Below, piece by piece: positions 1-29,144 of a stretch of 64,000 bases of DNA. The notes beneath the pieces are model-generated. The model saw only the letters and a list, made by a program, of their open reading frames with translations. It ran no database searches and had not been told where the DNA came from. Position numbers and translations under genes: made by a program. Source of the DNA: Raineyella fluvialis (GTDB lineage Bacteria; Actinomycetota; Actinomycetes; Propionibacteriales; Propionibacteriaceae); contig NZ_CP045725.1 of NCBI RefSeq assembly GCF_009646095.1, positions 372,001-436,000 on the forward strand, read 5' to 3'. Positions within the stretch are counted from its first letter, which is position 1. Each line of letters starts with the position of its first letter.

Positions 1-1496
1 CTGACGGTCACGCCGTGGGGATCGGTGACGCGCATCGTGACGAACGGCGTGATGTCGGGCAGCACGACCTGGAAGCACGCGTCAGTCCGACCGGACTCGG
101 TCTGAGTGCGGCTGATCCCGGGCTGTGTGAGCAGGGCGAGCTGGACGACGTGGTCAGCCGGGATGGCCAGCTCGGTCTCGCTGGTCAGGTGCAGCTGGTA
201 GGTGCCGTCGACGTGCTCAACGGTGATTCCGAAGGGAACCGCGGCCAGCGTACGCAGCAGGTTCTCCAGGTCGCGGACCGCGGCGTCCTCCTCCGGGATC
301 GGATGGTCGGCGCCGGGGGCGTACGCCTGCAGCAGGGTTCGGAGGTTGGCGCTCGTCTGGGGGTCGTCCGGCAGCGTCATCATGGCGTCGACGCCCAGGT
401 GCTGGGACCGGCCGACCAGTTCGACCACGAACTCGACGTTGCCTCCGTAGGCGGCCGAGGTGGCGTTGGCCGAGCCGATGAAGACGTGGGTCTCACCGCG
501 GTTGCGCTCCACGACGGTGACCTTGGCATGCAGGCCCACCAGTTCGCTGGCCGAGGACCCGGGTTCCTTCGTGCTGCCCGGCTGGGCGGACCTGGCATCT
601 CCTGCCTCTGTCGTCGTCGCTTCGACCGCGGTGATGTCCGCATTCGCCAAGGGGTCGAGGACGAAAACCGCCTCCCCGCCGGGACGTCGTAGGCCGGCAA
701 GGGACTCGGGCCCCAGGGCATCCAGCGCCTCCGGGCGGGAGACCAGTGCCACGTCCCTGGTGTTGGCACCGCTGACGTGGCGAATGCCGGCGGCGTCGAG
801 GAAGGGGGAAATGACGAGGTGGCGGTAGCCGGTGAAGTCGGGCTCAGCCCGAAGGCGAGGCACACCGAAGGCGTGGAAGTGCATCTCACTGACGTGGTCG
901 GGCAGGGACCAGTCCACTCGCTCGGCACGGTCGGCCAAGTCGTTCACCCGGGCGAGTCGCTCGGGCGCCAGGTCGGTGACGGCCCAGTTGGGCAGCTGTC
1001 GGAGGAACCGGGCCAGCGACCGGTTGCTGTCGTGGCGACGACCGCCGGCGATCCCCTCGAGAGTGACGACGGCATCCCATGCGCGGCTGTCAGCCAAGTT
1101 CCGGGTCGAGCAGATCAGTCGATAGGCGTCCGGAAGGTCCTCCGCGGTGTAGCGCAGGAACCAGATCTTGGGATGGAAGAGGTATCCGGGCCGCGGACGG
1201 TGGACGGGGTGCAGCATCGGCTCGAGGAAAGCCATCAGGTCGGATGCCTGCTGGGGGACGGCGATCTGGCCGGCTTGGCAGAAGATGTCGACGCGGTCGG
1301 CGCAGGCTCGTACCGCCTCCAGCGCGGCGATCGGGTCCTCGCGTGTGCGCATGTCGTACGAGGCGAAGGCGAGCGGGGCGACCAGCGCTGTCGGCAGGTG
1401 CAGGGTGAACGTTGTCGTCACTGCGGCCTCGAGCCGGTAGCCGGCGGGTGGGCGGAGCTGGTCCATCAGGACGACACGGCTGTCGGGCTCAAACAC
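1..1496 (-). CDS. Phospholipase D-like nuclease-type protein (DrmC-like chemistry), 3' end cut by window edge
   Basis: Reading from a GTG at 1496 the frame stays open for 498 codons to the left edge. Two phospholipase D-type H-x-K elements are visible: FHPK at about residues 107-110, followed by a CSTRN segment near 129-133, and LHAK at about 322-325, followed by IGSAN near 340-344. In the PLD superfamily such paired motifs form one phosphodiesterase active site, and DISARM DrmC is a PLD protein. A nuclease role in phage defence is inferred from context. The GTG overlaps the stop of the upstream DUF6361-like gene (GTGTTTGA), so translation is probably coupled; an alternative ATG lies at 1466. 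It is the last visible gene of the left operon and longer than a typical single-domain DrmC, so the drmC name is not assigned. Confidence 0.8.
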   Translation of the reverse strand, partial: MFEPDSRVVLMDQLRPPAGYRLEAAVTTTFTLHLPTALVAPLAFASYDMRTREDPIAALEAVRACADRVDIFCQAGQIAVPQQASDLMAFLEPMLHPVHRPRPGYLFHPKIWFLRYTAEDLPDAYRLICSTRNLADSRAWDAVVTLEGIAGGRRHDSNRSLARFLRQLPNWAVTDLAPERLARVNDLADRAERVDWSLPDHVSEMHFHAFGVPRLRAEPDFTGYRHLVISPFLDAAGIRHVSGANTRDVALVSRPEALDALGPESLAGLRRPGGEAVFVLDPLANADITAVEATTTEAGDARSAQPGSTKEPGSSASELVGLHAKVTVVERNRGETHVFIGSANATSAAYGGNVEFVVELVGRSQHLGVDAMMTLPDDPQTSANLRTLLQAYAPGADHPIPEEDAAVRDLENLLRTLAAVPFGITVEHVDGTYQLHLTSETELAIPADHVVQLALLTQPGISRTQTESGRTDACFQVVLPDITPFVTMRVTDPHGVTV

Positions 1497-2687: not shown

Positions 2688-2733
2688 CTGTCCCTCCTCC
2701 CTTCAAACCAAGAGGTCGCAACCAAAGAGCGGC

Positions 2734-3639
2734 CTATTCGAAGAAGTCCTCGTCGACTTCGACGATCTGCACGGTCCGCCGGACCTGGACACCGACTCCA
2801 TATCGCACCATCAACGACGCGAGCCGCTGACCATCGATAAGAATCACACGAGTGGGCACCGACTCGGCATATGCACGTGCGCCCGAAGCGAACCGTCCCG
2901 TAGTGATGAAGACGCCCTGGTTGGCCTGATTGCCGTGCAGCGCCCCGACGAAGGCCTGTACCTCAGGTCTCCCAACGCTGGCATCCAGGGCGTAGCGCTT
3001 CGCTTGAACATAGATGCGGCTGAGCCCCAGGGCGTCCTGGTCAACAATGCCGTCGATCCCGCCGTCGTTCGACAGCTGCGTTCGTGTTGCCTTTCCCTCC
3101 GCGCCGCCGTATCCCATGGCCATGAGTAGGTCGAGCACCGCCTGTTCGAAGAAGGCGGGATCCTGAGAGTGGAGGCGCACGAGCAGATCGGCGCCAACAG
3201 TCGCCTGGAGGCGGGCAACGCCGTTCTCGATCTGCTCTACTGGGTCGATCTCTTCCGTGTCCACCTCTGACACGTCCTCTACCGCTTCCATCCCCGAGGT
3301 GATCGCAGTGATCGTCGGGGGCAGCAGGGTCTTGAGGTCGTGGACGGTGATGCCTGTCGCACGCTGTTCCAACAACGCCCGCCCCGAGTCAGTAATCTGA
3401 TAACTGCCTCGGATGGGCCGGTAGGCCGCTCCGAAACGACCCAAGTAGGAAAGCGCCCAGTTGGCGCGGTTCTCCCACCGTGCCTGTCCGGAAGGGATCA
3501 GCTCCTTACGCGCTTGTTCACTCAGCCCGAGACGATCGGCGACGACCTCCCGCAGGTCCCGAGCCTTGTGGACGATTCCATCGGAGAGCTCCTGAAGGAT
3601 CGGTGCCATGAACTGCTCCCATGTAGGCACTTCAGTCAT
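2734..3639 (-). CDS. mrr: Mrr-type restriction endonuclease
   Basis: This 301-residue protein is about the length of E. coli Mrr. It has an N-terminal winged-helix-like region (about 1-95, containing GSYQITDSGRALLEQ) and a C-terminal Mrr catalytic domain of the PD-(D/E)xK fold: FFEQAVLDLLMAMGYGG (163-179), NDGGIDGIV (191-199) and the QAK element at 212-214. These supply the usual D and Q-x-K residues. Family knowledge: Mrr enzymes cleave DNA, often modified DNA. It lies in the left operon between the 1020-residue unknown and the DUF6361-like gene. The 205 bp upstream leave room for its own promoter. Co-occurrence with an adenine methyltransferase in the same island raises a self-targeting question. 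Confidence 0.9.
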   Translation of the reverse strand: MTEVPTWEQFMAPILQELSDGIVHKARDLREVVADRLGLSEQARKELIPSGQARWENRANWALSYLGRFGAAYRPIRGSYQITDSGRALLEQRATGITVHDLKTLLPPTITAITSGMEAVEDVSEVDTEEIDPVEQIENGVARLQATVGADLLVRLHSQDPAFFEQAVLDLLMAMGYGGAEGKATRTQLSNDGGIDGIVDQDALGLSRIYVQAKRYALDASVGRPEVQAFVGALHGNQANQGVFITTGRFASGARAYAESVPTRVILIDGQRLASLMVRYGVGVQVRRTVQIVEVDEDFFE

Positions 3640-3844
3640 CGACTCTCCTCACAAGGTCATGCGGTACCCGCTCGATGAGCAGCTACGTCTGACACCATAG
3701 TCATTCACATGGCCCTTGCCGGACGTTCGTCGGCCGGACGTCCGCCATTCCGCGGTGGCCGGGCACAGCGCCTTCAGGCTGAGGACGTGCGTCGCTACTC
3801 CCGCATTTATCGCCCACGCTCGAAGACGGAAGCAGAGCCTTCCG

Positions 3845-6800
3845 CTAGTGGGTGAACAGGTATGCCAGATGCTCCGCAAGGTCCACTTGCACATCGCGGT
3901 AGACCATACTTCTCCCCCTCCTGTACGGCAGCAGACCGGAGGCCATCACCACGGCGCGACCGTACAAGCCAGGAAGTTCCGCGCCGAGCGGCACGGACAA
4001 CTCGGCCGACGTACGGTCATAAGCCAACAGTGGCCGGTTGCCCGTGACCAAGGGCGCTGCATGCTTCGATAGCTGAACGGTCGACAGGGCCACAGTGTCG
4101 TTCCGGACATCCTCTTCAGTCCGCAGGAAATCGATGGTCGTGAAGCGGGAAACGCGGTAAGCGCCACGCCCGCCGGCATCGCCCGCCGAGAGCCAGCGAC
4201 TCTCGCGCGGGTCGAACCACCGGAGCTGTCCTTCGAGACCGAGTGTCTGTCGCGGCAATTCCGCCACCACAGCGCTGATGGGCGGGAGCTGAAGCGCCAG
4301 GTGTGACCACCCGTCTTCGAGAACGACGACCTCGTCGAGCACGTTCTCCGGGACCCCACGCAGGAACCATGATTCGGGGCCCTCCGGATTGGCCTCCTGT
4401 GCCAGGACCGCTCTGGTGCCAGCTACATCCGCCTGGCTGTTCGTCAGCGAGTCCGGCCAGTACCCGCTCAGGAAGTAGCCTCGGGCAGTTCTTACCAACG
4501 TGCTCGGGCAGATCTCCCAAGCGACCGGACGCAGCGAACGCGAGTCGCGGCGTATGTTGACGTGTCCTAGTGCCTCAAGAAAGCGCGCGAACTGGTCGAC
4601 TACTAGCCCACTCGACTGGATGTGGCGGGCGACGCGCTCGAAGTGGGACCAACTGCCGCCACCCGTGTAGAAGAGCCCGTCCAGGGCCAGGTCCCAGCAG
4701 AGGTCGGTCGGCGCGTCAGGAACAGGCAGTTGCCTGAGGTCGTGACGCGGACGCTCGGCGGCTTCTTTGGCACGGGCATAGCGAGCTCGGTTCGACCAGT
4801 AACTGGTCGAGTACCGACGTGTGAGTCCACAACCCACGCACCGTCCCGTGGTCCAGGCCACCAGCGGTCGTCCCTTGGCGTCTTGTGGGACGTAGTCAAC
4901 CGTGACCCGATGCTTGCCGGTGTACAGGCAGGAGTCAGGATTAACGGCAGTCAGGCGTATGGGCTCACGGCTCACTGCTCCGGAATGCTTCTCGCTCCAA
5001 CTCGGGGAAGCCGGCAGTGGGCCAGAGCGCAGGGCGTCGCTCGCCGGATGAATGCGCACATTGCACTCCGGCGCCACATGGTCGACCCCCATGACGCCGA
5101 GTCCTCGGGTGGGATCAAGCTCGACGGGATCGCTCACAGCCCATTGACGCAGGTCAGGCTGGTCACCACTCGCGAGTCGGATGCGGTAGGTCGACTCCGG
5201 CTCCTTGCTGCCGGCAGGCCACATCGAGATCCGGTAGTCGCCCGGTTCAAGTTCGGCGGACGCTAGGTCGACAATCAGGACACCGTTCCCGTCATCGCCC
5301 CAGGAGTCGATCGTCCGAAGCTCAGAGTCATCCTCCAGACCCAGATCCCCCGTGATGTCCTCAAGTCGGACCGCGAACCCACCTTGGGCGTCACTGACGG
5401 CGCGGATTTCAGGCGGCTCGCCGACGTGCCACGAGCCGCGCGTAGCTCCAGGGAGCGGAAAGCCTCCTGCGAGAGTCAGATGGCTCGTTGTCACCGGGAC
5501 GAGCCCCTGCAAGTCGTTAACTCCTGACTGCGCCACGCTGCGAGGGATATCGAACAGCTGCACGTCAGTGATGAGGGTCCAGCTGTCCGGGAGCCCGGGA
5601 ACGTCGGGCTGCTCATGCCAAGCCGGGCGGGCGGCCTCATCGAGCACTCGGCGGACACTGGGCAAGAGTTCATCGAAGCACAGCAAACGCAGGTCCTCAG
5701 TGAGCAGGGCGTGCTCTGTCTCGGTCCAGCGTGCCGTCATCTCGTCCTGTCGGAACAGGACGAGGCGGCGGGGGTGACGAGTGAGAGTCCGTGCGGAATG
5801 AGCGTCGCGGATGACGAGGTCCGCTTCCAGCAACGACTGTGCACTGACAGCGCTGCTCTCGCCCAGAGTCAACGCTCCCGGAATGCTGGGTGACAGAGAA
5901 ACCGGCACCTCGCCCTGAGCCGCGACCAGGGTTGCGTCCCGACCATTGGTCGCATCCGGCAGGAACGCCAGGACTCCGACTCCCAGCCGCTTCTTCGGGA
6001 ATGACGACAGCGCCAGGGACAAGCGCAGGCGACCGCCCGCGCCGTGCTCGTCGGTGGCACGGGCCGTCTGCCCGTTCCACGTCCCGAGAGCCGCGGCAGC
6101 AGCGTCCAGGACGCGTTGTCGTCCTGATCCGGGGTTCTGCCACAGCCGCTGGAGATTCTTCGAAGCAGGGCTCGGGTTCTGCCCGATCCATGAGTCGAAC
6201 AGCCCCTCCAGGTGCTGGGGCGGAATGTTCGAGCCAGGAGGGAGCCCAGCCGATTCGAAGAAGTCGATCAGACGCTCCCGGTCGCCCGCCCGCATCATCG
6301 CCTGGGTGATCGGGTAGCCGACGAACCGCGGCGTCGACGCCTCGACAGTGGGCAGTCCCCGACGTCCGTCGCAGTGCAGGAGCCAGGCCTTGAGCATGTT
6401 CCAGAGGTAGCTCCCGTCTCCGCGGTACCCCTGCTCGAGTTTCGTCGACTTGGCTGGAAGCCCAAGCAAACTGGTGAGGCGGCCATAGAAGTTGTTGGCG
6501 GCATACTCGTCGCTGCCCGCCATCTTCTCTGCTGCCATGCAGAGCACGCTCAGGAAGGCGAGCATCGGCGGTGGGTTCTGCCAGTCCCCTTGCCCGTACC
6601 AATTCCGGGTGCGTGATCGAATCGTCCGCAAGACGGCGGCAGGCCCTTCCGTCAGGTCCAGGACGCCGAGGACAGCGGCCGCAAGCTCCGCTTCCACCTC
6701 ACCCGGCGCCACCCCTGCAGCCGACGCCAGCGCCTCCATCCTGTCGTCCTCGAAGTCGAGGTAGACCGGTGCAGGTTCGTCCAACTCGGGGAACATCACA

Positions 6801-6907
6801 TCGGCGATGGCTTGGTTCCAAGCGGCGTACGTTGCCCACCGCTCGCTCAGTGGACGCCAGTCGTCCCGAACGCCCCACGTACCTCTCGATTCGCCGGCGC
6901 CTTTCAT
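3845..6907 (-). CDS. Uncharacterised 1020-residue protein of the left defence operon
   Basis: I do not recognise this family. The N-terminal half is rich in Trp/Tyr and helix-like (NWYGQGDWQNPPP at about 103, later LWNMLKAWLLHCDGRRGLPT and VGYPITQAMMRAGDRERL). The middle is beta-rich with repeated short strands that could be Ig-like modules. A lone CVGC pair in the last third could be half of a metal site. No Walker, H-x-K or D-x-K nuclease motif was seen. Its ATG overlaps the TGA of the helicase-DUF1998 gene by 4 bp (ATGA, 6904-6907), so the two are almost certainly co-translated. That argues for a partner or scaffold role in the helicase complex, which is inference. No signal peptide or transmembrane segment is evident. 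Confidence 0.75.
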   Translation of the reverse strand: MKGAGESRGTWGVRDDWRPLSERWATYAAWNQAIADVMFPELDEPAPVYLDFEDDRMEALASAAGVAPGEVEAELAAAVLGVLDLTEGPAAVLRTIRSRTRNWYGQGDWQNPPPMLAFLSVLCMAAEKMAGSDEYAANNFYGRLTSLLGLPAKSTKLEQGYRGDGSYLWNMLKAWLLHCDGRRGLPTVEASTPRFVGYPITQAMMRAGDRERLIDFFESAGLPPGSNIPPQHLEGLFDSWIGQNPSPASKNLQRLWQNPGSGRQRVLDAAAAALGTWNGQTARATDEHGAGGRLRLSLALSSFPKKRLGVGVLAFLPDATNGRDATLVAAQGEVPVSLSPSIPGALTLGESSAVSAQSLLEADLVIRDAHSARTLTRHPRRLVLFRQDEMTARWTETEHALLTEDLRLLCFDELLPSVRRVLDEAARPAWHEQPDVPGLPDSWTLITDVQLFDIPRSVAQSGVNDLQGLVPVTTSHLTLAGGFPLPGATRGSWHVGEPPEIRAVSDAQGGFAVRLEDITGDLGLEDDSELRTIDSWGDDGNGVLIVDLASAELEPGDYRISMWPAGSKEPESTYRIRLASGDQPDLRQWAVSDPVELDPTRGLGVMGVDHVAPECNVRIHPASDALRSGPLPASPSWSEKHSGAVSREPIRLTAVNPDSCLYTGKHRVTVDYVPQDAKGRPLVAWTTGRCVGCGLTRRYSTSYWSNRARYARAKEAAERPRHDLRQLPVPDAPTDLCWDLALDGLFYTGGGSWSHFERVARHIQSSGLVVDQFARFLEALGHVNIRRDSRSLRPVAWEICPSTLVRTARGYFLSGYWPDSLTNSQADVAGTRAVLAQEANPEGPESWFLRGVPENVLDEVVVLEDGWSHLALQLPPISAVVAELPRQTLGLEGQLRWFDPRESRWLSAGDAGGRGAYRVSRFTTIDFLRTEEDVRNDTVALSTVQLSKHAAPLVTGNRPLLAYDRTSAELSVPLGAELPGLYGRAVVMASGLLPYRRGRSMVYRDVQVDLAEHLAYLFTH

Positions 6908-9900
6908 CGCAGTACCTCTTCTACCTCGTGGGCCAGAGCCGAGTCATCACCATTGACTCGATGTGCCCGGACGATCCTCCAGTTGTTCTGGCTGCACCAG
7001 AAGTCCCGGTCGCTGTCGGCTTCGAGGACGACTGCCACTCGTGCGTCCGGCCAGCCGAGGTCGACCGGCCAGGCCATGTCGCCGACCTCGAGTCCTGCCT
7101 CCGGCATCGGTACGTCGCGTTGAGCCAGGTGCACAACCAATGGACGGATGCGCTCGTCGACGATGCCTTCCAGATCAGCCCAGTCCGGGTCGAGATCGAT
7201 TCCCTCTGCCTCGGCAGCCGGCGGGAGGACGACAGGGGACTGCATGCCTGGATGACCCCCAGCGGCGGCCGGTGCCAGCAAGCTGAAGATCATGTCGGGC
7301 GTTCTACGGCTCTCCCGTACGTCGGACATGAAGACGGTCAGTCCGCGCCGCTCAAGTGCGCGGACGGTATCGAGTTGGAGGCGGTTGAGCCGGTGCTTGC
7401 GAGACCACAACGGGTGGCCGAGAAGTACGGCCCGCCGTCCGGCCACGACTGCCGTCAGTGCCCCTGCGTCGAGGATCTCGACCTGGTGGTTGTCCTCCTC
7501 GAGAATGTGCCCGTAGACCCTCACGAAATGCGCTGCACTCTCTGCCGCGAGGCCCAGCCATCGGTCCAGGTTCAGACGGCGGCCGAGGGCAAGATCGGCA
7601 ACATCCAAGGCCAGACGCCAATCCAAGAGCCCGTGGACGAATCGGTTGTCCCAGGAGCGCAGGCAGTCAGCGCAAGATGAGTCACAGGCTCGGTGATCAT
7701 CGGCCTGCCACTGCGAGCTGAGCCGGTCCGCGATCACCGAGAGGGCGCGTCGCAGAATCGGGCCTTGGGCGAGCTCGACGGCATAACCTGCGCCGTTTTC
7801 CAGAGTGTCGGCGAGATAGACCGCTGCGGTGCGCATCCCGTTGAGCGTCGCTCGCGACTGGATACCCCCTGACAGCTCCTGTGGTTGAACGTCCAGCTCC
7901 GCCTGACAGCCCAGCTTCAAGGCTTCGGCGAACGACTGCATGGCCGATCGGCCCGCCGGGCATTCCTCTGGGTGGGTGTTCACCACTCCGCCCTGCAACC
8001 GCACTTTGTCCAGCATCAGCATGACCGCATCGGTGGTGCGGATGTCGCCGATGACACCTCGTCGAGGCGAGCGGACTCCGTCACCTCCCGAATGGACCCC
8101 CACGGAACCGAAGTGGTCATCCACGAACTCGAACTCGCGGCCGCGGTTGTCGTTGACAACGATCAACTGGGCCTGTTCCAGCTGCCAGACCTTTACCGCG
8201 TCGACCATGTTGGTACGCCGCCCCAGGTCGGTCCAGGCCAGGTCGGCGGCGCCTGTTCCTGAGCCGGCGTTGCGCCGGACGTGGTCATCGCGCATCGTGG
8301 CACGAAAGCCGCTCGGCTGGTAGAGCGAGCTCCGTGTCGTGCGGTCCCCACAGACCGGACATGCGCCTCCGCCGGTGGAGGCATGGCTGGCGTAACCACA
8401 CTTGCACCGTTCGATCTCCACCGGCCTCCCCAGCGGATTGCCAAGGCGCTTGGGGCGGCTCTCGGGTGCCAAGGGATCGAGAGCAACGAAGCCATCCGCG
8501 AGGTACGACCAGCCGTCCTTGATCACCGCATTGCCCGGGCTGAACATCGAGACCGCGAGGTCCAGAGCCCTGTCCGCCACAGCCTTGGGAGGTCCGTCCG
8601 CGTGCGGCGGGTCGAAGTAGAGGGTACGGACCTTGGTCGGGAAGCCGAACATCGGCAACAGGCCAGCATTGGCAAGGCGCTCGCTGAGCAGCGCCTGGTT
8701 GTAGATCGGGTCGTTGGCGATCCGATCGATCTCATCCGCCAGCCGGTTCTGCAACCACTTGCGCATGGCGTCGGAATCCGTGGGACTCAGTCCGGTGTAT
8801 TTGATGAAGCGCTCCACGACGCGGAGAACTTCGCGGCTCCCCCTGAGCCATTTCCGGACCGCTTCGCCATTGGGTTTGGCACCGGACTCGTCGAGACCCA
8901 GCCATTGCTTCACCGAGCCGAATCGGCCATGCGTCGAGGGTGCCCCGGACACTTGGGTGGCCTCGAGCGGCAGAGAGGCGAATGCCTGACGGAGCAACTC
9001 GGCAACGACGACGCGGCGAACGATCGTCATGCGGGGGGTGTCGATGAAGGGCGCAGGCACAGGGTCGCCGGTCATTCGCTCCGGATCGCCGTAGTAGAAC
9101 TCGTCATGGCCGCGGTCACGACACACCGTGACGGCATACGAGAACGGCTGCTCGGCCCCCTTCCGCGTCCGGCTCGCCCGACGCGCTGCTGATAGTTGAA
9201 GCGCTGGGGGGGCATGTTCCCCATCACGACCGCCCGCAGCGTGCCGATGTCGACACCCACCTCCATCGTCGTGGTGACGCTGAGTACGTCGATGGCGCTG
9301 GTGAGGCGGTTCTCCACATCCGGACGAAACGCCCGACGGAAGAGTCGCTGCCGACGACGCTGTTCCAGGCGATCGGTCTGACCGGTCAGTTCTGCCGCCA
9401 CCAGACGCCGAGGGGGCTGCCGCGCAAGCCAGGTGTAGTAGTCAGAATCGTCGGGTGTGGCCGGGTCGTACGCGATCTGGTCCAGTACGCCGGAGCATTT
9501 CTCTCGGATGCACGTCCCACCGGACTCATGCGCATGAGCACGACCACACGTCCGGCAGATCCAGCGTTCGGTGGGGAGCTCTACGGCGAGCGGCACGTCG
9601 AGGCCATCGAGATTAAGGCTCCCCTCGGCCATGACCGGCTTCATCGCGGTGAAGACTGCAGCCGTAAGCGTGTCGGGTTTCATCCGCAGCCGCGCAGCCG
9701 CGCGTGTGAGGTAGTTGATGACCGGCCGAGGACGCTTGTCGACGGTCTTGGCCGCGCCCTGCGCGGGCAACAGGTAGCCCGAGGCCAGATAGAGCCGGAG
9801 AACCGAACGCACGACAGGCCTGATGCTCTCCTCGACACCGGTCTCGTCCGCGAGGCGCAGGACCGCGGTTCCGGTCTCCTCCAGGTCGCGCCCGCCGGTA

Positions 9901-12565: not shown

Positions 12566-12711
12566 GATTTTCTCAGGAGTCTAGGAGATGACGCTGACAG
12601 TTCTCAGTGCCACCGGGTCAATCATTCGGCCAACCGCATCATCCGAGTGGCTGACCCGGGCCGGACCCAGGCTCGGTAGGGTGCGAATATCGCCATCGTC
12701 AAAGGAGCGTC
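12566..12711. promoter_or_regulatory. Divergent control region between the two defence operons
   Basis: This 146-bp gap separates the starts of the minus-strand helicase-DUF1998 gene and the plus-strand drmD gene, so it must carry promoters for both operons unless transcription enters from elsewhere. An AAAGGAG ribosome site lies just before the drmD GTG. I could not identify convincing -35/-10 pairs or an operator by eye. Confidence 0.55.
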
Positions 12712-15636: not shown

Positions 15637-15639
15637 GCC

Positions 15640-20333: not shown

Positions 20334-23300
20334 GTGAGTTGCTGCCGACCCTCCAGGCCCGCGACATTCAGCGCGGGCTGCGGGACTATCTCACCACGAC
20401 GTTCGCCCTCGCCGACTCCGATGCCCGGCGCGCGCTCGATGACTTCCTCAGCGACGAGCACGACGGCATCTTCAAGGGCCCGTACGTGCGCATGCGCCTC
20501 CCCTACCGCGCAGCGCCCAAGTACGCCGAACCGTCGCTGGAGTGGCAGCCGCCCTACCCGCCGTACGCCCATCAGGCGACGGCGTGGTCGCGGCTGACCA
20601 CCCTCGACCGGGGGCCGGACAAGCCCCGGCCACTGCCGACCCTGGTCACCACCGGCACCGGTTCGGGCAAGACCGAGGCGTTCCTCTACCCGATCCTCGA
20701 CCACGTGCTGCGAGCCCACGACCGAGGCGTCACCGGCACCAAGGCGCTGATCCTCTACCCGATGAACGCGCTGGCCAACGACCAGGCGCTCCGCCTCGCC
20801 AAGCTCATCGCCGACCCGGCGAACGGGCTCTCCGGTGTCACCGCCGCCCTCTACACCGGCCAGGACAGCAAGCCCCGCACCCGGGTCAGCGAGGACAGCC
20901 TGATCACCGACCGCGGCATCATCCGCGACTCGGCCCCCGACATCCTGCTGACCAACTACAAGATGCTCGACCAGCTGCTGCTGCGCGAGGAGGACCAGTC
21001 GATCTGGCGCCAGAGCGCCGAGAGCCTGACCTACCTGGTGCTCGACGAGTTCCACACCTACGACGGGGCCCAGGGCACCGACGTCGCGATGCTGCTGCGC
21101 CGCCTCGGCCTGACGCTGAAGAGCCACTGGGCACCCAGCACCCACACCGAGGATGAACTGACCCGCCCGCTGGGCCGGATGACCCCCGTCGCGACCTCCG
21201 CCACGCTCGGTGACAAGGGCGATCCGGCCGAGATGGTCGGCTTCGCCACCACGGTGTTCGGCGAACCCTTCAGCGCCGACGACGTGGTCACCGAGACCCG
21301 GGTCAGCCTCGACGAGTGGTGCGCCGGAGCCCATGCCCGCGTCGCTGCTCACCACATCTCCCCCGCCCCGGTGCAGGCCAGCCTCCTACGGACGATCAAT
21401 GCCGCTGTCTCCCAGCTCGGCGAGGCACCTGAGCCGCACGATCTCGCGGTCACCGTTCTCAACGGGCTCTATCAGCCCGACGACCCCAGCGCCGCGGCCC
21501 AGCGCAAGCCGCTCACCGCGCTCGCCGACCTCGAAGCCCTCGCCAAGGCGCACCCGCTGGTGCGCTCCCTGATCGAGCATGCGGTCGACGCGACCAGCCT
21601 GGCGAGCCTGGCCACCGAACTGGTCCCGCTGGCCGGGGCAGGCCCCGACTTGGTGGCGCAGGCCACCGAGTTCCTCACCGACCTGGTCGGCGCACTCAGC
21701 CACCTGCGCGCCCAGCTCGGCCGCGGCTTCGTCACCATGGAGACCCACCTGTGGGTCCGCGAACTCACCCGGATCGATCGGCTGGCCAGCACCTCCCCCG
21801 GTTATCGCTGGTCCGACGACGGCGTGGTCACCGGAGCCGCTGGCGGGGTGACCGGAGACCCGGGCGCCGTCGCGTTCCCCGCCGTCTACTGCCGCCACTG
21901 CGGCCGGTCCGGCTGGGGTGTCGGGCTGGGCCCGACCGGGACCGGCCTGGACCACGACGACAAGCGGATCCGCGCCGACCACGCCGCCGGCAACGGCCGC
22001 TTCCGCGCCCTGATCCGGGCCACCAGCTCCGAGGCCGAGCACCTGGCCGCCAACCCCGGTGAGAACAGCGAGTTCGGCTGGTTCTCCGTCCGCGGCCGCG
22101 AACTGACCCGGACCGACCCGGGCGAGGAGGAGCGCCAGGAGAGCGACTACCTGCCGGTCCTCACCCACTGGGGCGACAACGCCGACGACGCCTCCCGCCA
22201 GGACACCTGCCCCGCCTGCCAGAAGGACGACGGCATCCGCTTCCTCGGCTCGGCCATCGCCACCCAGCTCTCGGTGACGCTGTCCGGCCTGTTCGGCACC
22301 GACAACCTCGACCCCGCCGAGAAGAAGGCCCTCGTCTTCACCGACAGCGTCCAGGACGCCGCGCACCGGGCCGGGTTCATCGAGTCCCGCTCGCACACCC
22401 TGACGCTGCGCGCCGCCCTGCGCGCCAGCATCGGTCCCGAACCGGCCACACTGAAGTCGCTCGTCGCGACGGTCCTCTCCGACGCCGGTAAGGACCCGTT
22501 CCGCCGCTACCGGCTGCTGCCGCCCGACGTGGTCGGCCGCGACGACTTCTCCGCCTTCTGGCGTACGGATGCCTCCGGTCCGGCCCGGGTGGCGGCGACG
22601 CGACGGGTGGAGTCCCGGCTGCTGTTCGACACCGTGCTGGAGTTCGGCCTGCAGGCCCGGCTGGGTCGCACCCTCGAGCTCACCGGCTCGGTCGCCGCCC
22701 AGGTGGACGCCGGGATGCCCGCCGCGCTGGCGAACATCGCCCGGCAGGTGATCAAGCAGGCCGACACCGAGCCCGCCCTGTTCACCCCGCTCGACCAGCG
22801 CCCCGACGACATGCTCGTCCGCTGGGTCCGCGGCGTGCTGGAGCACATGCGCACCCAGGGCTCGATCGCCCACAAGTGGTTCGACAAGTACATCGAGAAC
22901 GACGGCAACCGCTGGATGATCTGGGGCGGCCGGCCCAAGGGTCAGGGCATGCCCGCCTTCCCGAAGGGCCGCTCGGCCCCCGGGTTCCCCCGCGTCGGCG
23001 GCGCCCAGCTCAAGGGCGATCCGCTGCTCGACCCGGTCACCAGCCCGCAGAGCTGGTACTCCCGCTGGGCCAACAAGACCCTCGGTGTCACGCCGCAGTT
23101 CGGCGCCCGGCTGAGCAAGGCGCTGCTGCAGCGGCTCGCCGACGCCGGGATCCTCACCGCCACGACGACGAAGTCCTCGGCCACCGTCTACGCGATCCCG
23201 ACTGACCGGGTGCTGGTCTCCGAGCTCGACCTGCCCGGCCTGCAGGCCGGGCGGTACCGGCTGCACTGCTCGGTCTGCCACACCGAGCACCCCGGCACGG

Positions 23301-26300
23301 CCGAGACCGTCGACCAGCTCGTCGGCGCGCCCTGCCTGATGGTCCGCTGCTCCGGCACCCTGGATCGGGCGCCCATCGAGGACAACTACTACCGCCACCT
23401 CTACGACTCCTCCGACATGCGCCGCGTCGTCGCCCGCGAACACACCAGCCTGGTCCCCGACACCGAGCGCCTGGCCCGCGAGGGCGCCTTCCGGTCCTCC
23501 CGCGCCGACTCGAGCGCGCCGAACGTCCTCGTCGCCACACCCACCCTGGAAATGGGCATCGACATCGGCGACCTGTCCGCGGTCTTCCTCGCCTCACTGC
23601 CCCGTACGGTCGCCTCGTACGTCCAACGGGTCGGGCGCGCCGGCCGCCTGACCGGCAACGCGCTGGACATGGCCTTCGTCACCGGCCGCGGCGAACACCT
23701 GCCCCGACTCGGTGACCCGCTGTCCATGATCAACGGCGCGGTCCGCCCGCCGGCGACCTACCTGAGCGCCGAGGAGATGCTCCAGCGCCAGTACCTCGCG
23801 CACATCCTCGACGAGTTCGCTCGAGACCCCGGGCGGGCGCATCCGCGGCTGGCCGAGGCGGTGATGGCCTCGACCGAGCCGGGCACCTTCCTCGGCGACC
23901 TGGTCACGTACGCCGAACAGAATGCCGGGCCGCTGCTCGAGCGCTTCCTCAGCGCCTTCGACGACCTGCTGCCGGCCGCCGTCGCGAACCTGCGAGCCTG
24001 GGCCACCCCCGGCGAGGCACCGCGCAATAGCGGTCTGGCCGCGATGGTGGTCGGGGCGTCGGGGCGCTGGGCCCGTACGGTCCAGGAGCTGCGTCAGCGC
24101 AAGCTGACGATCCAGAAGGAGATCCCCGACCTGCGCCAGCGCGCCGAGGTCCCGGCCGCGACCGAGGACGACAAGCGCGACCTGCGGATCGCCGAGGCCA
24201 CGCTGAAGATGACCAACGGTCAGATCGCCGAGCTGACCACCGACCACTGGATCGGCACGCTCGAGGCGTACGGCATCCTGCCGAACTACACCCTGGTCGA
24301 TGACAGCGTGCACCTGGACGTCTCCGTCTCCTGGCTCGACCCGGACAGCCAGACGTACGAGTCGGACTCCTTCGGCGTCGACCGCTCCGGCGGGGCCACG
24401 CCGCTGCGGGAGTTCGCCCCCGGGGCGACGTTCTACGTGCACGGCCTGGAGGTCGCGATCGACGCGGTCGACCTGGGCCCGAACGCGTCGGCGATCCGCG
24501 CGATGGCGATGTGCAGCGAGTGCGGCTACGTGGAGGACATGGCCCTCAGCGGCCACCAGCAGGATCCCCAGCCGTGCCCACGGTGCGGCAGCTCCTCCAC
24601 CCGCGACACGGGCAACCACGTGCCGGTCGTCGAGCTCAAGCGGGTGACCGCGGCCGTACGGCGCGACGAGGCGCTGATCTCCGACCGCTCCGACGAGCGG
24701 CGGCAGGTGTGGTTCGGGATCGTGCCGGCGATCGACGTCGACCCGGCCGAAGTCGCCGAGCAGTGGTATGTCAAGGGCTACGACTTCGGTGTGAAGTACC
24801 TGCGCCGGATGACACTGCGCTGGTTCAACGTCGGTGAGCAGGGCGAGTTCGGGCAGAAGCGGCGGATCGCCGGCAAGGACATGGTCGCGCCGCTGTTCCG
24901 GGTCTGCGTCGGCTGCGGCTGCCGTGACCTGACCGCAAAGAGCAATAGCCGGAACGAGCACCGGCCGTGGTGCGCCTACCGGACCAGCAGCGACGAGCAC
25001 GTCGAGGAGATCGCGCTGTCGCGGACGCTGCAGACCCAAGGAGCGATGATCCCGCTGCCGATCTCGGTGACGACCGGGGACCCGTTCGCGATCCCGAGCC
25101 TGTCGGCGGCACTGAAGCTGGGGCTGCGCGAGCAGTTCGGCGGCGCGCCCGACCACATCGGCGTCGCGGAGGTGCCGGACCCGGTCAGCACCGAGCTGGG
25201 CACCCGCGAGGCGCTGGTGCTCTACGACACTGTGCCCGGCGGAACCGGCTACCTGGCCGAGCTGTCCGACCCGGCACGGGTCCACGACCTGCTCTACCAG
25301 GCCTGGCGCAAGGTCGCCGAGTGTCCCTGTCGCGACGAGGAGCGGCTGGCCTGCCACCGCTGCCTGCTGCCGCTGGCAGCGGGGCGCGACATCGACCGGG
25401 TGTCCCGGCAGGCCGCCGAGCGGCACCTGGGAGCGATCCTGACCGCAGGACGCCTCGACGAACCCGAGCCGGACCTGGTCTGGGACGTCACGGTCGAGCG
25501 GCCGCCGGCGGATCCGTCGATGTCGCCGCTGGAGCTGCGCTTCGCCGAACTGTTCCGGGCGCTGCTGGAGGACCTCAACGCCACCGTCCAGGACGTGCCC
25601 GGGACCTGGGGCAACACGATCCGGGCGAACGTACGTCCCCGCCGCTGGACGCTGGAGCCGCAGGTGCCCGTCCTCAACTCGAAGCCGGACTTCGTACTGC
25701 GTTCCGACGACACGAACGTCCCGCCGGTCGCGATCTTCACCGACGGGCTCGCCTACCACGCCAGCGTCGCCGTGAACCGGCTGGCCGATGATGCCGGGAA
25801 GCGATCCGCGCTGGCCGAGGCGGGCTATCTGGTCCTCAGCGTCACCGCAGCGGATGTGAGCACTGAGGAGAAGCGACGGGCCGACGAGCGGATCACCGTC
25901 GCGGCGCCGGAGTGGTTCGACGAGGCGCAGGCCGGCGTGGTGGCGAACCATGGCCAGTACCAGTCCGGCGACTACGCGGTGGTCACCGGCGGCCCGTTCG
26001 CCTTCCTGCGTCGATGGATCCGGGCGCCGTACGCCGATGCGCAGCGTCGGATGGCGGACCACCTGCCGATGATCTTCGCAACGTCAACCCAGGCTGTCAG
26101 CGGGGTCGTCACGGCGAACCAACCCGCCGCCGAGCAGGCCCGCCGGATCCTGCAGGGCGGCTCGCCCGGCGTCGTGGTCGGCGAGACGGTGCCGGCCTGG
26201 TGGTGGCACCGGGGTCCCCTCGTGGTGTTCTCGCGGCTGATGCCAGCCGATTCCATCGAGGTCGTCGCCATGGTCGACGATCGGCCCTCGGCGGTCGGGT

Positions 26301-27073
26301 CGGCCGGGTTCCCCGATGCCTGGTGGGACTGGCTGACCGTCGCGAACGGACTGCAGGGCCGCCAGATGCCGACCACGATCACCACGCTGGAGCGGATGAA
26401 GTTGGCCGCGGCGCAGAAAGCGTCCGGACCGGCGCCGGCCGCTTCGGTCCCGGCGTCGGGGACCGGCGGTCTCCGGGCCGAGGTGTTCACTCCTGGCTGG
26501 AAAACGATTCTCGACGGGGCACTGGAGGACGAGCGCAGCCTTGGCGAGGAACTGGCCCGGGCCGGGTTGCGTACGCCCGACGCGATGGGCGACGAGGTCG
26601 GCGACACCGGCATCCCCGCCATGTTCTTGTGGGAGGTCGAGCACGTGGTCGTGTTGAGAGACCTGGTCGAGCAGGACGTCGAGGACCTGCGTACACGGGG
26701 CTGGACGGTGCTCGGGCCGGAAGCCACCGACATCGAGGCGGCCCTCAGCGGCGCCGCTGACCGGCGCAACGAGGGCAGGAGGGCGTCTGATGGCCGAGTC
26801 GAATCTGATCATGATCAAGCCGTTGAGCAGGATCGATCCGCGGCTGCGGAGCAAGGCCTTCGCCTTCCTCGAGAAGCTGACCGAGGACGACAGCGCCCCC
26901 GGGCTGCATATCGAGCCGATCAAGAACAGCGCGGATCCTCGGGTACGGACCGGCCGGGTCGACCTGCAGTTCCGTGCGGTGCTGTTCCGTCTGACCGGCG
27001 CGAACGACGTCTCGTACGTCTTCCACGGCATCTGGAACCACGACGACGCGATCAGGATCGCGCAGCGGACTAA
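20330..27073 (+). CDS. Giant DEAD/H helicase with DUF1998 and C-terminal nuclease-like region (DrmA/DrmB-like fusion)
   Basis: The open frame gives 2247 residues. Visible elements are Walker [13 protein letters not shown] (about 108-119), LYPMNALANDQ, LLTNYKMLDQLLL, DEFHTYDG (about 238), [19 protein letters not shown] (about 1098), a zinc pair CRHCG, DUF1998-type TVPGGTGYLAEL (about 1636) with CHRCLLP, and a later KPDFVL...VAIFTDGLAYH stretch (about 1784-1805). The last stretch resembles Vsr/DUF559-like nuclease folds, but with T where an acidic residue is common. It combines what DISARM splits into DrmA and DrmB. The last 280 or so bp overlap the next gene out of frame. Adding one base in a G-run near 26773-26783 would end it at the TGA at 26788-26790, giving TGATG coupling and about 2153 residues, which I consider more likely. 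Confidence 0.85.
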   Translation: MSELLPTLQARDIQRGLRDYLTTTFALADSDARRALDDFLSDEHDGIFKGPYVRMRLPYRAAPKYAEPSLEWQPPYPPYAHQATAWSRLTTLDRGPDKPRPLPTLVTTGTGSGKTEAFLYPILDHVLRAHDRGVTGTKALILYPMNALANDQALRLAKLIADPANGLSGVTAALYTGQDSKPRTRVSEDSLITDRGIIRDSAPDILLTNYKMLDQLLLREEDQSIWRQSAESLTYLVLDEFHTYDGAQGTDVAMLLRRLGLTLKSHWAPSTHTEDELTRPLGRMTPVATSATLGDKGDPAEMVGFATTVFGEPFSADDVVTETRVSLDEWCAGAHARVAAHHISPAPVQASLLRTINAAVSQLGEAPEPHDLAVTVLNGLYQPDDPSAAAQRKPLTALADLEALAKAHPLVRSLIEHAVDATSLASLATELVPLAGAGPDLVAQATEFLTDLVGALSHLRAQLGRGFVTMETHLWVRELTRIDRLASTSPGYRWSDDGVVTGAAGGVTGDPGAVAFPAVYCRHCGRSGWGVGLGPTGTGLDHDDKRIRADHAAGNGRFRALIRATSSEAEHLAANPGENSEFGWFSVRGRELTRTDPGEEERQESDYLPVLTHWGDNADDASRQDTCPACQKDDGIRFLGSAIATQLSVTLSGLFGTDNLDPAEKKALVFTDSVQDAAHRAGFIESRSHTLTLRAALRASIGPEPATLKSLVATVLSDAGKDPFRRYRLLPPDVVGRDDFSAFWRTDASGPARVAATRRVESRLLFDTVLEFGLQARLGRTLELTGSVAAQVDAGMPAALANIARQVIKQADTEPALFTPLDQRPDDMLVRWVRGVLEHMRTQGSIAHKWFDKYIENDGNRWMIWGGRPKGQGMPAFPKGRSAPGFPRVGGAQLKGDPLLDPVTSPQSWYSRWANKTLGVTPQFGARLSKALLQRLADAGILTATTTKSSATVYAIPTDRVLVSELDLPGLQAGRYRLHCSVCHTEHPGTAETVDQLVGAPCLMVRCSGTLDRAPIEDNYYRHLYDSSDMRRVVAREHTSLVPDTERLAREGAFRSSRADSSAPNVLVATPTLEMGIDIGDLSAVFLASLPRTVASYVQRVGRAGRLTGNALDMAFVTGRGEHLPRLGDPLSMINGAVRPPATYLSAEEMLQRQYLAHILDEFARDPGRAHPRLAEAVMASTEPGTFLGDLVTYAEQNAGPLLERFLSAFDDLLPAAVANLRAWATPGEAPRNSGLAAMVVGASGRWARTVQELRQRKLTIQKEIPDLRQRAEVPAATEDDKRDLRIAEATLKMTNGQIAELTTDHWIGTLEAYGILPNYTLVDDSVHLDVSVSWLDPDSQTYESDSFGVDRSGGATPLREFAPGATFYVHGLEVAIDAVDLGPNASAIRAMAMCSECGYVEDMALSGHQQDPQPCPRCGSSSTRDTGNHVPVVELKRVTAAVRRDEALISDRSDERRQVWFGIVPAIDVDPAEVAEQWYVKGYDFGVKYLRRMTLRWFNVGEQGEFGQKRRIAGKDMVAPLFRVCVGCGCRDLTAKSNSRNEHRPWCAYRTSSDEHVEEIALSRTLQTQGAMIPLPISVTTGDPFAIPSLSAALKLGLREQFGGAPDHIGVAEVPDPVSTELGTREALVLYDTVPGGTGYLAELSDPARVHDLLYQAWRKVAECPCRDEERLACHRCLLPLAAGRDIDRVSRQAAERHLGAILTAGRLDEPEPDLVWDVTVERPPADPSMSPLELRFAELFRALLEDLNATVQDVPGTWGNTIRANVRPRRWTLEPQVPVLNSKPDFVLRSDDTNVPPVAIFTDGLAYHASVAVNRLADDAGKRSALAEAGYLVLSVTAADVSTEEKRRADERITVAAPEWFDEAQAGVVANHGQYQSGDYAVVTGGPFAFLRRWIRAPYADAQRRMADHLPMIFATSTQAVSGVVTANQPAAEQARRILQGGSPGVVVGETVPAWWWHRGPLVVFSRLMPADSIEVVAMVDDRPSAVGSAGFPDAWWDWLTVANGLQGRQMPTTITTLERMKLAAAQKASGPAPAASVPASGTGGLRAEVFTPGWKTILDGALEDERSLGEELARAGLRTPDAMGDEVGDTGIPAMFLWEVEHVVVLRDLVEQDVEDLRTRGWTVLGPEATDIEAALSGAADRRNEGRRASDGRVESDHDQAVEQDRSAAAEQGLRLPREADRGRQRPRAAYRADQEQRGSSGTDRPGRPAVPCGAVPSDRRERRLVRLPRHLEPRRRDQDRAAD

Positions 27074-29144
27074 GCTGAAGACCAATCCGGTCAACGGCCT
27101 GATGGAGGTCATCGAGGCAACCACTCCAAAGGAGGAGCCGGCCACCTCGACGTGGGTGCCCTCCCCTGGGGCGCCGACCGCGGCAACGAGCACGGCGGAC
27201 GCCGGGCCCTCTCCTGCCACCGGGCCGGCAGCTGTCACTGGGACGGCGCCGGTCCTCGGGGCCACAGCCGGTACAGCGCCCGCCCCGGCGCCCGGCCCTG
27301 CAGCCTCGGTAGAGAGCGCCATCGTCCCCACCCGGAGGCCCTGGCAGGTCGCCGCCACCCGCGCCGAGTTGGTGAACGGTCTCGGCCTCGACGAGGCCCT
27401 CGCCGAGCGGGTGCTGGCGTGTGCGGACGAGGACGCCATCCTCGACCTGGCCGGCGCGTTCGTCGACTGGCGCAGCAACGCGCTGCTGGAACTGGCGGCC
27501 GGCGCAACAGTCGCCGAGGTCAAGGATCGCCTCGAAATCACCGAGGCGCCCGGCCGCGACGACAGCGACCAGGCCATCCTCGACGGTCTGCGGCAGCCCG
27601 CCTCACAAGGGGCGTTCACCTTCGTGGAGAACAACGACGAACTGCGCCGGATCATCGAAGAGGGCGACTTCGGCGCCTGGCGCGTCTGGCTGCACCCCGA
27701 GCAGCGCAAGTACGTGACCCGTGACTACCAGGGCCCGTTCCGGCTCTCCGGCGGCGCCGGCACGGGCAAGACCGTGGTCCTGCTGCACCGCGCCCGGCGA
27801 CTCGCCAAGGCCAATCCGCAGGCGCGCATCGTCCTGACCACCTTCACCACGAACCTCGCGGACGCCCTGGCCCGTGACCTGAGTCGACTCGACCCGGACC
27901 TGCCCCGGGCTCAGGAACTGGGAGATCCCGGCGTCCTGGTCCGTGGCGTCGACGCGCTGGCGTACGCGGCCATCAAGTCGGCCGGCTCCGAAATCAGCGC
28001 CGCCGTCGACGATGTGCTCGGAGCCCCGAGTTCCCACGTCCAGCAGCGCACAGCCGGCGATGCCTGGAAGGCGGCGATCGCCACGGCCGGGTCCGACCTG
28101 CCGGCTGCCCTGCACACCCCCCACTTCTTGCAGGCCGAGTACGAGGCCGTCGTCCTGCCGGGGCACATCACGGCGCAGGCCGATTATCTGCGCGTCCGCC
28201 GGCCCGGCCGGGGCGTACGCCTCAACCGCAAGGAACGCGCTGCGGTGTGGCAGGTCATCGAGGCCTACCGGGCAAGCTCCAGGGTCGAGGGCACGCTCGA
28301 CTTCGCCGAGGCCGCGACTGTCGCGGCCGCGCACCTGACCAAGCAGGCGGCCGAAGGACAGGGTCACCGGGCCGACCACCTCCTGGTCGACGAGGGCCAG
28401 GACCTCTCCCCCGCGCACTGGCAGCTACTGCGGGCTCTGGTCGGCGAGGGCCCGAACGACCTCTTCATCGCCGAGGATTCCCATCAGCGGATCTACGGCC
28501 ACAAGCTCGTGCTGGGCCAGTACGGGATCCGGATCGTCGGCCGGTCGCAGCGCCTGACCCTGAACTACCGGACGACTGCGGAGAACCTGCACTTCGCCCT
28601 CGGCGTGCTCGACGGCGGGACCTACGCCGACCTGGAGGACCAGCCCGAGGAGACCGGCCGCTACCACTCCTCGCGGCGAGGGCCGGTACCGCAGGTGATC
28701 GCGTGCGGGTCGATGAACGGGGAGCTGGATACGGCCGCCAACCTGATCCGCGGCTGGGCCGAGCAGGCGCCGCAAGAGGGACGGGGTACGGAGACGATTG
28801 CGATCCTTGTACGCGACCAGTACCAGCGCGACCGGGTGGTCAGTGGTCTGGGCGAGCGCGGAGTCAACGTACGCCCCGTGGATCGGGAAGCGGTCAAGCC
28901 CGGCCCGCCGGTGGCGATGACGATGCACCGGGCGAAGGGCACGGAGTTCTCGAAGGTGCTGCTGTTCGGGATGAGCGAGAAGTCGATCCCGAAGATCGTC
29001 AGAGGCGCTGATTACTCCGTCGACGAGAAGCAGGATGCGCTGCTGCGGGAACGGTCGCTGCTGTACGTGGCAGCGTCGCGGGCCAGGGATGAGCTGGTGG
29101 TGACGTGGAGCGGGGAGGCGAGTGAGCTGCTGCCGAGGGGGTAG
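26790..29144 (+). CDS. UvrD-type helicase with N-terminal RelE/ParE-like domain
   Basis: This 784-residue protein starts at ATG 26790 behind AGGAGG. Residues 1-110 resemble the RelE/ParE toxin fold (DPRVRTGRVDLQFRAVLFRL, then YVFHGIWNHDDAIRIA). A Pro/Ala/Thr-rich linker follows (about 112-180). The superfamily 1 helicase core comes next: Walker A SGGAGTGKTVVLL (about 322), VDEGQDLSP (about 533), NYRTTAEN, MTMHRAKGTEFSKV and LLYVAASRARDEL. Superfamily 1 helicases translocate on single-stranded DNA. The toxin-like head could act as an mRNA interferase, a DNA-binding clamp or simply a structural domain; the sequence cannot decide. It ends the right defence operon and is not a standard DISARM component. 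Confidence 0.85.
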   Translation: MAESNLIMIKPLSRIDPRLRSKAFAFLEKLTEDDSAPGLHIEPIKNSADPRVRTGRVDLQFRAVLFRLTGANDVSYVFHGIWNHDDAIRIAQRTKLKTNPVNGLMEVIEATTPKEEPATSTWVPSPGAPTAATSTADAGPSPATGPAAVTGTAPVLGATAGTAPAPAPGPAASVESAIVPTRRPWQVAATRAELVNGLGLDEALAERVLACADEDAILDLAGAFVDWRSNALLELAAGATVAEVKDRLEITEAPGRDDSDQAILDGLRQPASQGAFTFVENNDELRRIIEEGDFGAWRVWLHPEQRKYVTRDYQGPFRLSGGAGTGKTVVLLHRARRLAKANPQARIVLTTFTTNLADALARDLSRLDPDLPRAQELGDPGVLVRGVDALAYAAIKSAGSEISAAVDDVLGAPSSHVQQRTAGDAWKAAIATAGSDLPAALHTPHFLQAEYEAVVLPGHITAQADYLRVRRPGRGVRLNRKERAAVWQVIEAYRASSRVEGTLDFAEAATVAAAHLTKQAAEGQGHRADHLLVDEGQDLSPAHWQLLRALVGEGPNDLFIAEDSHQRIYGHKLVLGQYGIRIVGRSQRLTLNYRTTAENLHFALGVLDGGTYADLEDQPEETGRYHSSRRGPVPQVIACGSMNGELDTAANLIRGWAEQAPQEGRGTETIAILVRDQYQRDRVVSGLGERGVNVRPVDREAVKPGPPVAMTMHRAKGTEFSKVLLFGMSEKSIPKIVRGADYSVDEKQDALLRERSLLYVAASRARDELVVTWSGEASELLPRG

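Follow-up and report, generated by a model that had tools for sequence, protein, structure and literature searches.

Two defence operons on opposite strands

The window considered here is a stretch of 64,000 nucleotides of Raineyella fluvialis (372001-436000 of the single-contig 3.65 Mb chromosome), with a defence island of two divergent operons at its left end. The right operon (+ strand, 12712-29144) consists of ArmA, ArmB, ArmC and ArmD and is, as judged from sequence, an ARMADA type II system gene for gene. The left side (- strand) starts with DruE and DruF, which by their profile matches are a Druantia with two genes, akin to types II and IV, followed by Mrr, ZacA and then ZacB and ZacC, which extend beyond the window edge. 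Very probably these are two anti-phage systems, driven by related helicases and placed back to back, with Mrr and Zac behind the left one. An initial annotation, made from the letters alone, had correctly recognized a defence island of two operons and the exact 146-base divergent gap between them (12566-12711, no strand); its reading of the whole as an expanded DISARM is taken up below.

ARMADA type II has a strict gene order: a BrxHII-like helicase, a PglX-like methylase, a YprA-like helicase and a RelE-GajB helicase (PMC12458937). The same four are found here, on one strand and in that order, a full match to the characterized system. The reference for comparison was the ARMADA island located in Escherichia coli ATCC 8739. 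ArmA (12712-15636, +), a BrxHII/DrmD-like SNF2 helicase of 974 amino acids (PADLOC DrmD 4.5e-93; Pfam Helicase_C and SNF2-rel_dom), is 34% identical to its E. coli counterpart over 829 columns and keeps the Walker A and B residues. ArmB (15640-20333, +), the PglX-like methylase (PADLOC PDLC03611, expectation value (E) 0; DrmMI 1.2e-49), changes frame near 16480. Its two pieces cover positions 1-269 and 278-1531 of PDLC03611 and retain the GxG and NPPW residues; the large one is 34% identical to E. coli ArmB over 1264 columns, the small one 29% over 109. In G139, a sister genome of the same genus, ArmB is a single frame of 1569 amino acids.

ArmC (frame 20330-27073, +), a YprA/DruE-like helicase with an MZB domain (Pfam DEAD, Helicase_C, MZB) and a putative C-terminal Vsr-like nuclease, is 30% identical to E. 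coli ArmC over 1929 columns. In its tail D1787, D1805, H1810, D1821 and K1824 are invariant across 15 ArmC proteins including that of E. coli; in the reading adopted here, these acidic, histidine and lysine residues look Vsr-like. ArmD (26790-29144, +; 784 amino acids; 30% identity over 779 columns) joins a RelE-like domain to a UvrD/GajB-like helicase (Pfam UvrD 2.7e-22; GajB 5e-26). The RelE part gave no match by Pfam or PADLOC and is recognized by fold: a model of residues 1-120 (three sequences, mean predicted local distance difference test score (pLDDT) 77.6) matches YoeB, YafQ and other RelE-family toxins with probability up to 1.00, the best E being 1.1e-3 and none at or below 0.001. 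All eight residues that the E. coli study probed by mutation are kept in the window's ARMADA proteins when the NCTC 12900 numbering is transferred to the ATCC 8739 proteins; six of these mutations abolished defence and two partly reduced it (PMC12458937). A tree of ArmC and DruE puts ArmC in an ARMADA clade with E. coli ArmC (13 ArmC rows, support 100). It was built by a quick method, has long branches (Ec_ArmC was flagged) and leaves ARMADA types I and II unseparated.

Of 21 further ArmB loci taken from a sample of 391 genomes of the order, 19 have ArmA-B-C-D in this order on a single strand. In the two exceptions the contig ends first (G089) or no ArmC or ArmD match occurs in the stretch (G203). 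Some ordered loci have several kilobases between genes; for example, such distances separate ArmB from ArmC or ArmC from ArmD in the operons of G328, G215 and G253.

DruE (6904-12565, -), a Druantia II-like helicase-MZB protein, changes frame near 11935 and again near 9180, which spreads it over three frames. PADLOC DruE2 is the best model for each of the three pieces (6.7e-56, 3.2e-212 and 3.4e-124), and the middle piece falls in a Druantia II-like clade of the quick tree with support 100. G139 has DruE as a single open frame of 1778 amino acids. Helicase and MZB stand in a single chain in ArmC and, across the frame breaks, in DruE, as in relatives. DruF (3845-6907, -) is the protein of 1020 residues that was previously considered unknown. 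It matches PADLOC DruF2 (PDLC00023, 4.4e-216) over residues 21-1019; there are also matches to DruF4 on residues 22-485 and to DruL4 (5.2e-06) on 871-1015, with type II models best overall. Since DruF4 matches the first half and DruL4 the end, DruF is split elsewhere and PADLOC type IV has this content, the protein is apparently a DruF-DruL fusion. According to the portions of PMC8565338 drawn on here, PADLOC Druantia type IV comprises DruE, DruF and DruL without DruM and DruG, and type II comprises DruM, DruF, DruG and DruE together. The type II set is not found here: DruM has no tblastn match in the window and 20 kb to its left, and neither DruM nor DruG occurs among the open reading frames (ORFs) scanned with PADLOC. 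A C5 methylase matching DruM2 does lie near DruEF in six of ten relatives from the order (DruM2 is the best model in three, the second in three).

In a sample of 394 genomes of the class, DruF occurs in 17, whole-length in six and partial in 11. For six of the partial ones the end part is found 2-3 kb on, in a frame of other length. These short proteins (G514, G515, G574, G614, G699 and G706) are open frames of 689-792 amino acids, and the end part is DruL-like. The model obtained for DruF from 28 sequences, with a mean pLDDT of 81.5, is helical in its N-terminal part, beta-rich in the middle and mixed in its C-terminal part; the invariant C660, H666, C690 and C693 suggest a zinc site. No NCBIfam family scored above chance against the 28 members. 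A remote relationship to DruH was considered and is unsupported, profile comparisons with 3, 13 and 14 DruH sequences giving probabilities of 6.5, 3.0 and 1.5.

Behind DruF lies an Mrr-type methyl-directed restriction enzyme of 301 amino acids (2734-3639, -; Pfam Mrr_cat 5.1e-37, Mrr_N 7.5e-26; PADLOC mREase_IV 1.4e-78). Beyond it PADLOC identifies ZacA, ZacB and ZacC, adjacent and in order. ZacA (DUF6361; 1489-2687, -) is in two frames (3.6e-74 for 1489-2352, 1.3e-40 for 2349-2687). ZacB (1-1511, -; 6.4e-168), which has 631 amino acids and weak matches to the PLD-type DrmC, leaves the window leftward, and ZacC lies outside it at L025:16221-19865 (1109 bits). The left side thus continues into the chromosome rather than ending at base 1. 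A DO-GTPase2 protein at L025:15050-16264 directly adjoins ZacC and could be part of the Zac unit here.

The protein kinds listed by the initial annotation are all present. On the right these are the SNF2/DrmD-like helicase, the DrmMI-like methylase, the helicase-DUF1998 giant and the RelE-UvrD protein, and on the left the helicase-MZB protein, the 1020-residue protein, Mrr, the DUF6361 protein and a PLD-like protein, which is ZacB. What did not hold is the assumption of intact frames, with DruE in three frames, ArmB and ZacA in two each and ArmC overrunning its neighbour.

To the right of the island two ISL3 transposase copies (29625-31010 and 33857-35212), 99.93% identical over 1448 bases, bracket an ORF of 569 amino acids without a Pfam match, a composite-transposon-like layout. 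A tRNA-linked element was rejected, with no tRNA in the window or in four surrounding 20-kb stretches.

Recurrence and rearrangement in other genomes

The two operons are mostly found apart. In the order sample DruF is present in 11 genomes, strong ArmB (whole or in pieces) in 37 and any ArmB match in 82; eight of the 11 lack strong ArmB and 34 of the 37 lack DruF. Both occur in three genomes, that of the window (G000), G139 and G328, and in G328 they are far apart. In the class sample, ArmB at E <= 1e-40 is present in 41 genomes, six of them also with DruF (p 0.0046, uncontrolled for genome size). Several of the co-occurring ArmB proteins are divergent, and one checked case, G515, has no ArmC beside ArmA-ArmB and was not counted as a divergent ARMADA-Druantia IV pair. 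In that genome (L143/L144) about 8 kb separate an ArmA-ArmB-like pair from a divergently oriented Druantia DruF-DruE set.

Adjacency of ARMADA and Druantia recurs nonetheless. The order-sample ArmB loci examined number 23 (the window, G139 and 21 fetched; the other 14 of the 37 were outside the set), and DruE adjoins ARMADA in five, two of them DruEF and three of another kind. In these three (G072, G252 and G335) DruE has a partner of 1112-1148 amino acids. The lengths of the two proteins agree with those of the mycobacterial Druantia III pair, for which the part of PMC13316683 drawn on gives 1132 amino acids for DruH and 1667 for DruE. The partner is unnamed by PADLOC and has no BLAST match to E. 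coli DruH, and the three DruE do not form one group with E. coli DruE3 in the tree; for these reasons the pairs are graded only as Druantia III-like. A III-like pair also follows ArmABCD in G685 of the class sample. The arrangement may be divergent, with ARMADA first, or with Druantia first as in E. coli (G252).

A first contig scan with a single-protein query found no relative. With DruF as query 32 loci were found. DruE follows DruF in 22; the other ten (L087-L089, L091-L093, L095-L097 and L099) are from Kocuria and have no DruE match in the stretch. Their DruF-like protein is mostly about 27% identical, perhaps a DruF family with some other partner. Complete ArmABCD lies directly upstream, on the same strand, in two of the 22, Paeniglutamicibacter terrestris and P. 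antarcticus (L083 and L100), where the ArmD stop and the first DruF start are 41 and 43 bases apart; in P. antarcticus ZacABC follows DruE. ZacC was not found in the genome of Zafaria cholistanensis (L094 and L193), and only a weak helicase-motif match was seen in P. terrestris and G139. Zafaria itself was not counted as ARMADA-linked, the locus being likely an ARMADA remnant with no ArmA-C within 18 kb upstream.

The sister genome offers the closest comparison. In G139 DruF-DruE lie on one strand, followed by an IS21-type ATPase gene, with ArmABCD on the opposite strand. DNA flanking the island on the left and right is 84-95% identical in G139, the left pieces being partly shuffled. As proteins, ArmA-D are 73-88% identical between G000 and G139, DruF 50% and the DruE pieces 48-61%. 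DruE and DruF have also changed places: the window has DruE-DruF, as opposed to DruF-DruE in G139, the ten order relatives and the 22 named loci. The two DruE are nevertheless each other's nearest rows in the tree, and therefore either DruEF has evolved faster and been rearranged, or related cassettes were acquired twice. Third-position GC (guanine plus cytosine) is 0.82-0.94 in the Arm genes, 0.73-0.77 in DruF and two in-frame DruE pieces, and 0.76 on average in 87 background ORFs; the difference between the Arm and Dru genes fits separate modules. In the other two members of the genus, the G190 contig stops beside the right flank, and G198 has no real match to that flank.

The inter-operon gap had been proposed as a shared control region. 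Only about 39 nucleotides beside ArmA match in G139, where the IS21-type ATPase gene intervenes, and a simple scan of 12480-12800 found no sigma-70-type site. A conserved shared divergent promoter is rejected on these grounds and on that of the tandem pair in Paeniglutamicibacter. Of the alternatives first offered, one system or two locked together, that of two systems is supported. Both outcomes that the initial annotation had set as refuting its reading occurred: one operon corresponds in full to a named, characterized system, and the two operons lie mostly apart. The suggested search for conserved pairing found adjacency in a minority only, divergent in G139 and tandem in Paeniglutamicibacter.

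Possible cooperation of neighbouring systems

Since the operons are mostly apart, and adjacency recurs with a varied partner, order and orientation, ARMADA and Druantia are best seen as separate modules sometimes placed together. In E. coli each of the four ARMADA II genes is needed, phage growth is blocked without cell death (Bell et al., PMC12458937), and ARMADA II shows synergy with Druantia III for some phages (PMC12458937). Bell et al. also predict an inactive nuclease domain for DruE of types I and II (PMC12458937). For Druantia III, the portion of a preprint used here (PMC13192584) supports DruE as a helicase-nuclease acting on intermediates that contain single-stranded DNA, with DruH as the likely sensor and with Zorya synergy through common DNA intermediates.

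A working scheme for the window follows from these. ArmB would mark host DNA, and ArmA, ArmC and ArmD would act on unmarked invading DNA. The Vsr-like domain of ArmC may cut that DNA, and the RelE-like part of ArmD could be a second, RNA-directed effector. By extension from the parts of the Druantia III work cited, DruE may be a helicase that loads onto replication intermediates containing single-stranded DNA, with DruF in place of DruH as sensor or loader. By analogy, DruEF and ARMADA would be separate systems able to share DNA intermediates, and the repeated side-by-side placement most likely reflects additive or synergistic protection.

Several observations weigh against this account. Co-occurrence in the order sample (3 of 11) is not significant (Fisher p 0.076). 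A defence-gene hot spot may account for the repeated placement of ARMADA beside Druantia. In Zafaria, the third Micrococcaceae case, a frame-split helicase part of ArmD, without the RelE-like start, lies directly upstream of DruF-DruE. One gene of the right flank is intact in the window but broken in G139, so that some frame switches could be real. Self-marking by ArmB is not among the E. coli results drawn on here (PMC12458937). DruF as sensor is a guess from position and shape: no reliable DruH profile match was obtained, and a fold comparison with PDB and viral models gave nothing at E <= 0.001.

Compared with known systems, the right operon resembles ARMADA type II (PMC12458937) in its four genes, order, domains, short gene overlaps and eight mutation-tested residues, as well as in the RelE-UvrD fusion and the Vsr-like residues of ArmC. 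It differs from that of E. coli in being actinobacterial and 30-34% identical (29% for the small ArmB piece), and in its neighbour, a DruEF Druantia where E. coli has Druantia III and Zorya II. The left operon shares with Druantia II/IV the DruE2-like helicase and DruF2-like protein and differs in having DruL seemingly fused to DruF. The three Zac proteins, in order as in PADLOC, lie partly outside the window and outside the unit first described. As in the E. coli array of Zorya II, Druantia III and ARMADA II (PMC12458937), ARMADA II is directly beside a Druantia with a third system adjacent; here, however, the Druantia is of another type, the orientation is divergent, and the third system is Zac, not Zorya. 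ARMADA II, Druantia, Mrr and Zac are thus individually of known kinds, and the combination of ARMADA II with DruEF (and Zac) is the new part. The literature searched contains no mention of ARMADA II paired with DruEF or Zac; the supplementary tables of Bell et al. may list such cases.

A bolder reading, which is doubtful, casts ARMADA II and Druantia as exchangeable halves of one shared DNA-processing defence, repeatedly reassembled, with the Druantia helicase preparing DNA for a neighbouring nuclease to cut. DruE, its own nuclease predicted to be inactive, would prepare phage intermediates containing single-stranded DNA, and the Vsr-like domain of ArmC, Mrr or Zac would cut them, much as Druantia III prepares DNA for ZorE. 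If this were true, the window and G139 would form a natural partner-exchange experiment, with shared flanks, the same ARMADA, distant DruEF and swapped order.

Frame breaks and other readings of the island

Five frame breaks occur in the island: two in DruE and one each in ArmB, ZacA and the end of ArmC. At the last, the ArmC frame overruns the ArmD start by 284 nucleotides. In 15 of 20 relatives ArmC and ArmD overlap by 1-11 nucleotides at the first possible ArmD start; in the remaining five, ArmD starts later in G168, G252, G335 and G048, where the two genes overlap by 1 or 8 nucleotides, and in G253 the genes are 4.5 kb apart. This comparison rejects a genuine long overlap, and the true ArmC end is most likely near 26790.

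If the switches were true mutations, the island would be decaying and its systems dead. The breaks in DruE, ArmB, ArmC and ZacA, the insertion sequences around, and the decay of ARMADA elsewhere (Zafaria) favour this. A home-made decoder of codon-position GC, which recovers three of the five island switches and misses the first in DruE and that in ZacA, called 1 more switch elsewhere in the window, and three further stretches of this genome yielded 18, 5 and 2 (26 in all outside the island, over 198 kb called coding). The same decoder gave 3 and 0 in two stretches of G139 (195 kb). Pieces flanking several of the switches, named by eye, read as single metabolic or transport proteins. A comparison of shared genes was of little use, since only 21 and 29 ORFs could be matched. 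Four rows went one way, two for DruE and one each for ArmB and its antisense shadow; the seven rows the other way include shadow frames and the right-flank gene split in G139.

Because switches are common assembly-wide and far rarer in G139, the breaks are on balance most likely sequencing or assembly errors, and therefore both systems are predicted to be probably intact in the cell. ArmA, ArmD, DruF and Mrr are open frames and key residues are kept, which also makes decay improbable. Frame breaks in this assembly should accordingly be taken with caution and not as gene loss. At the first DruE switch (about 11928-11947) an inverted repeat was seen by eye, its 8-base arms enclosing a 4-base loop; sequencing errors or slippage could be frequent there. 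Near the start of the contig a GmrSD gene (L045:7655-9567), not an essential one, is spread over several frames, either from an indel-rich assembly or from decay.

That ARMADA and DruEF are one machine, neither half protective alone, is very unlikely. They are divergent and 146 bases apart here, divergent again in G139 with flanks common to both genomes, and in close tandem in the two Paeniglutamicibacter. On the other hand, they are mostly apart, with variable orientation and Druantia type and with DruE and DruF swapped between the window and G139, and ARMADA alone is protective in E. coli (PMC12458937).

The right operon does share DrmD-like and DrmMI-like proteins with DISARM class 1, a kinship of ARMADA generally (PMC12458937), and a PLD-type protein is nearby. 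An expanded DISARM with duplicated, fused DrmA/DrmB is scarcely conceivable all the same: ArmC and DruE fall in separate ARMADA and Druantia II-like clades, PADLOC DruE scores are far above those of DrmA for both, no separate DrmA/DrmB pair was found in the island, the only PLD-type protein found is ZacB, part of ZacABC and not a DrmC of the window's own, and the operon corresponds gene for gene to ARMADA II. Both ARMADA and Druantia ordinarily have a fused YprA-like helicase (PMC12458937).

With two very probably separate systems back to back, the ARMADA-Druantia partnership is carried from E. coli phage satellites to actinobacterial chromosomes and widened from Druantia III to the two-gene DruEF Druantia. 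It also explains a previously unannotated protein of 1020 residues as DruF. Similar pairings occur in a few relatives and in other arrangements, which makes ARMADA-Druantia cooperation worth testing. Since adjacency recurs with changing partner, order and orientation, these loci would make it possible to test directly if helicase-based defences work together by way of DNA intermediates and not as a single fixed complex.

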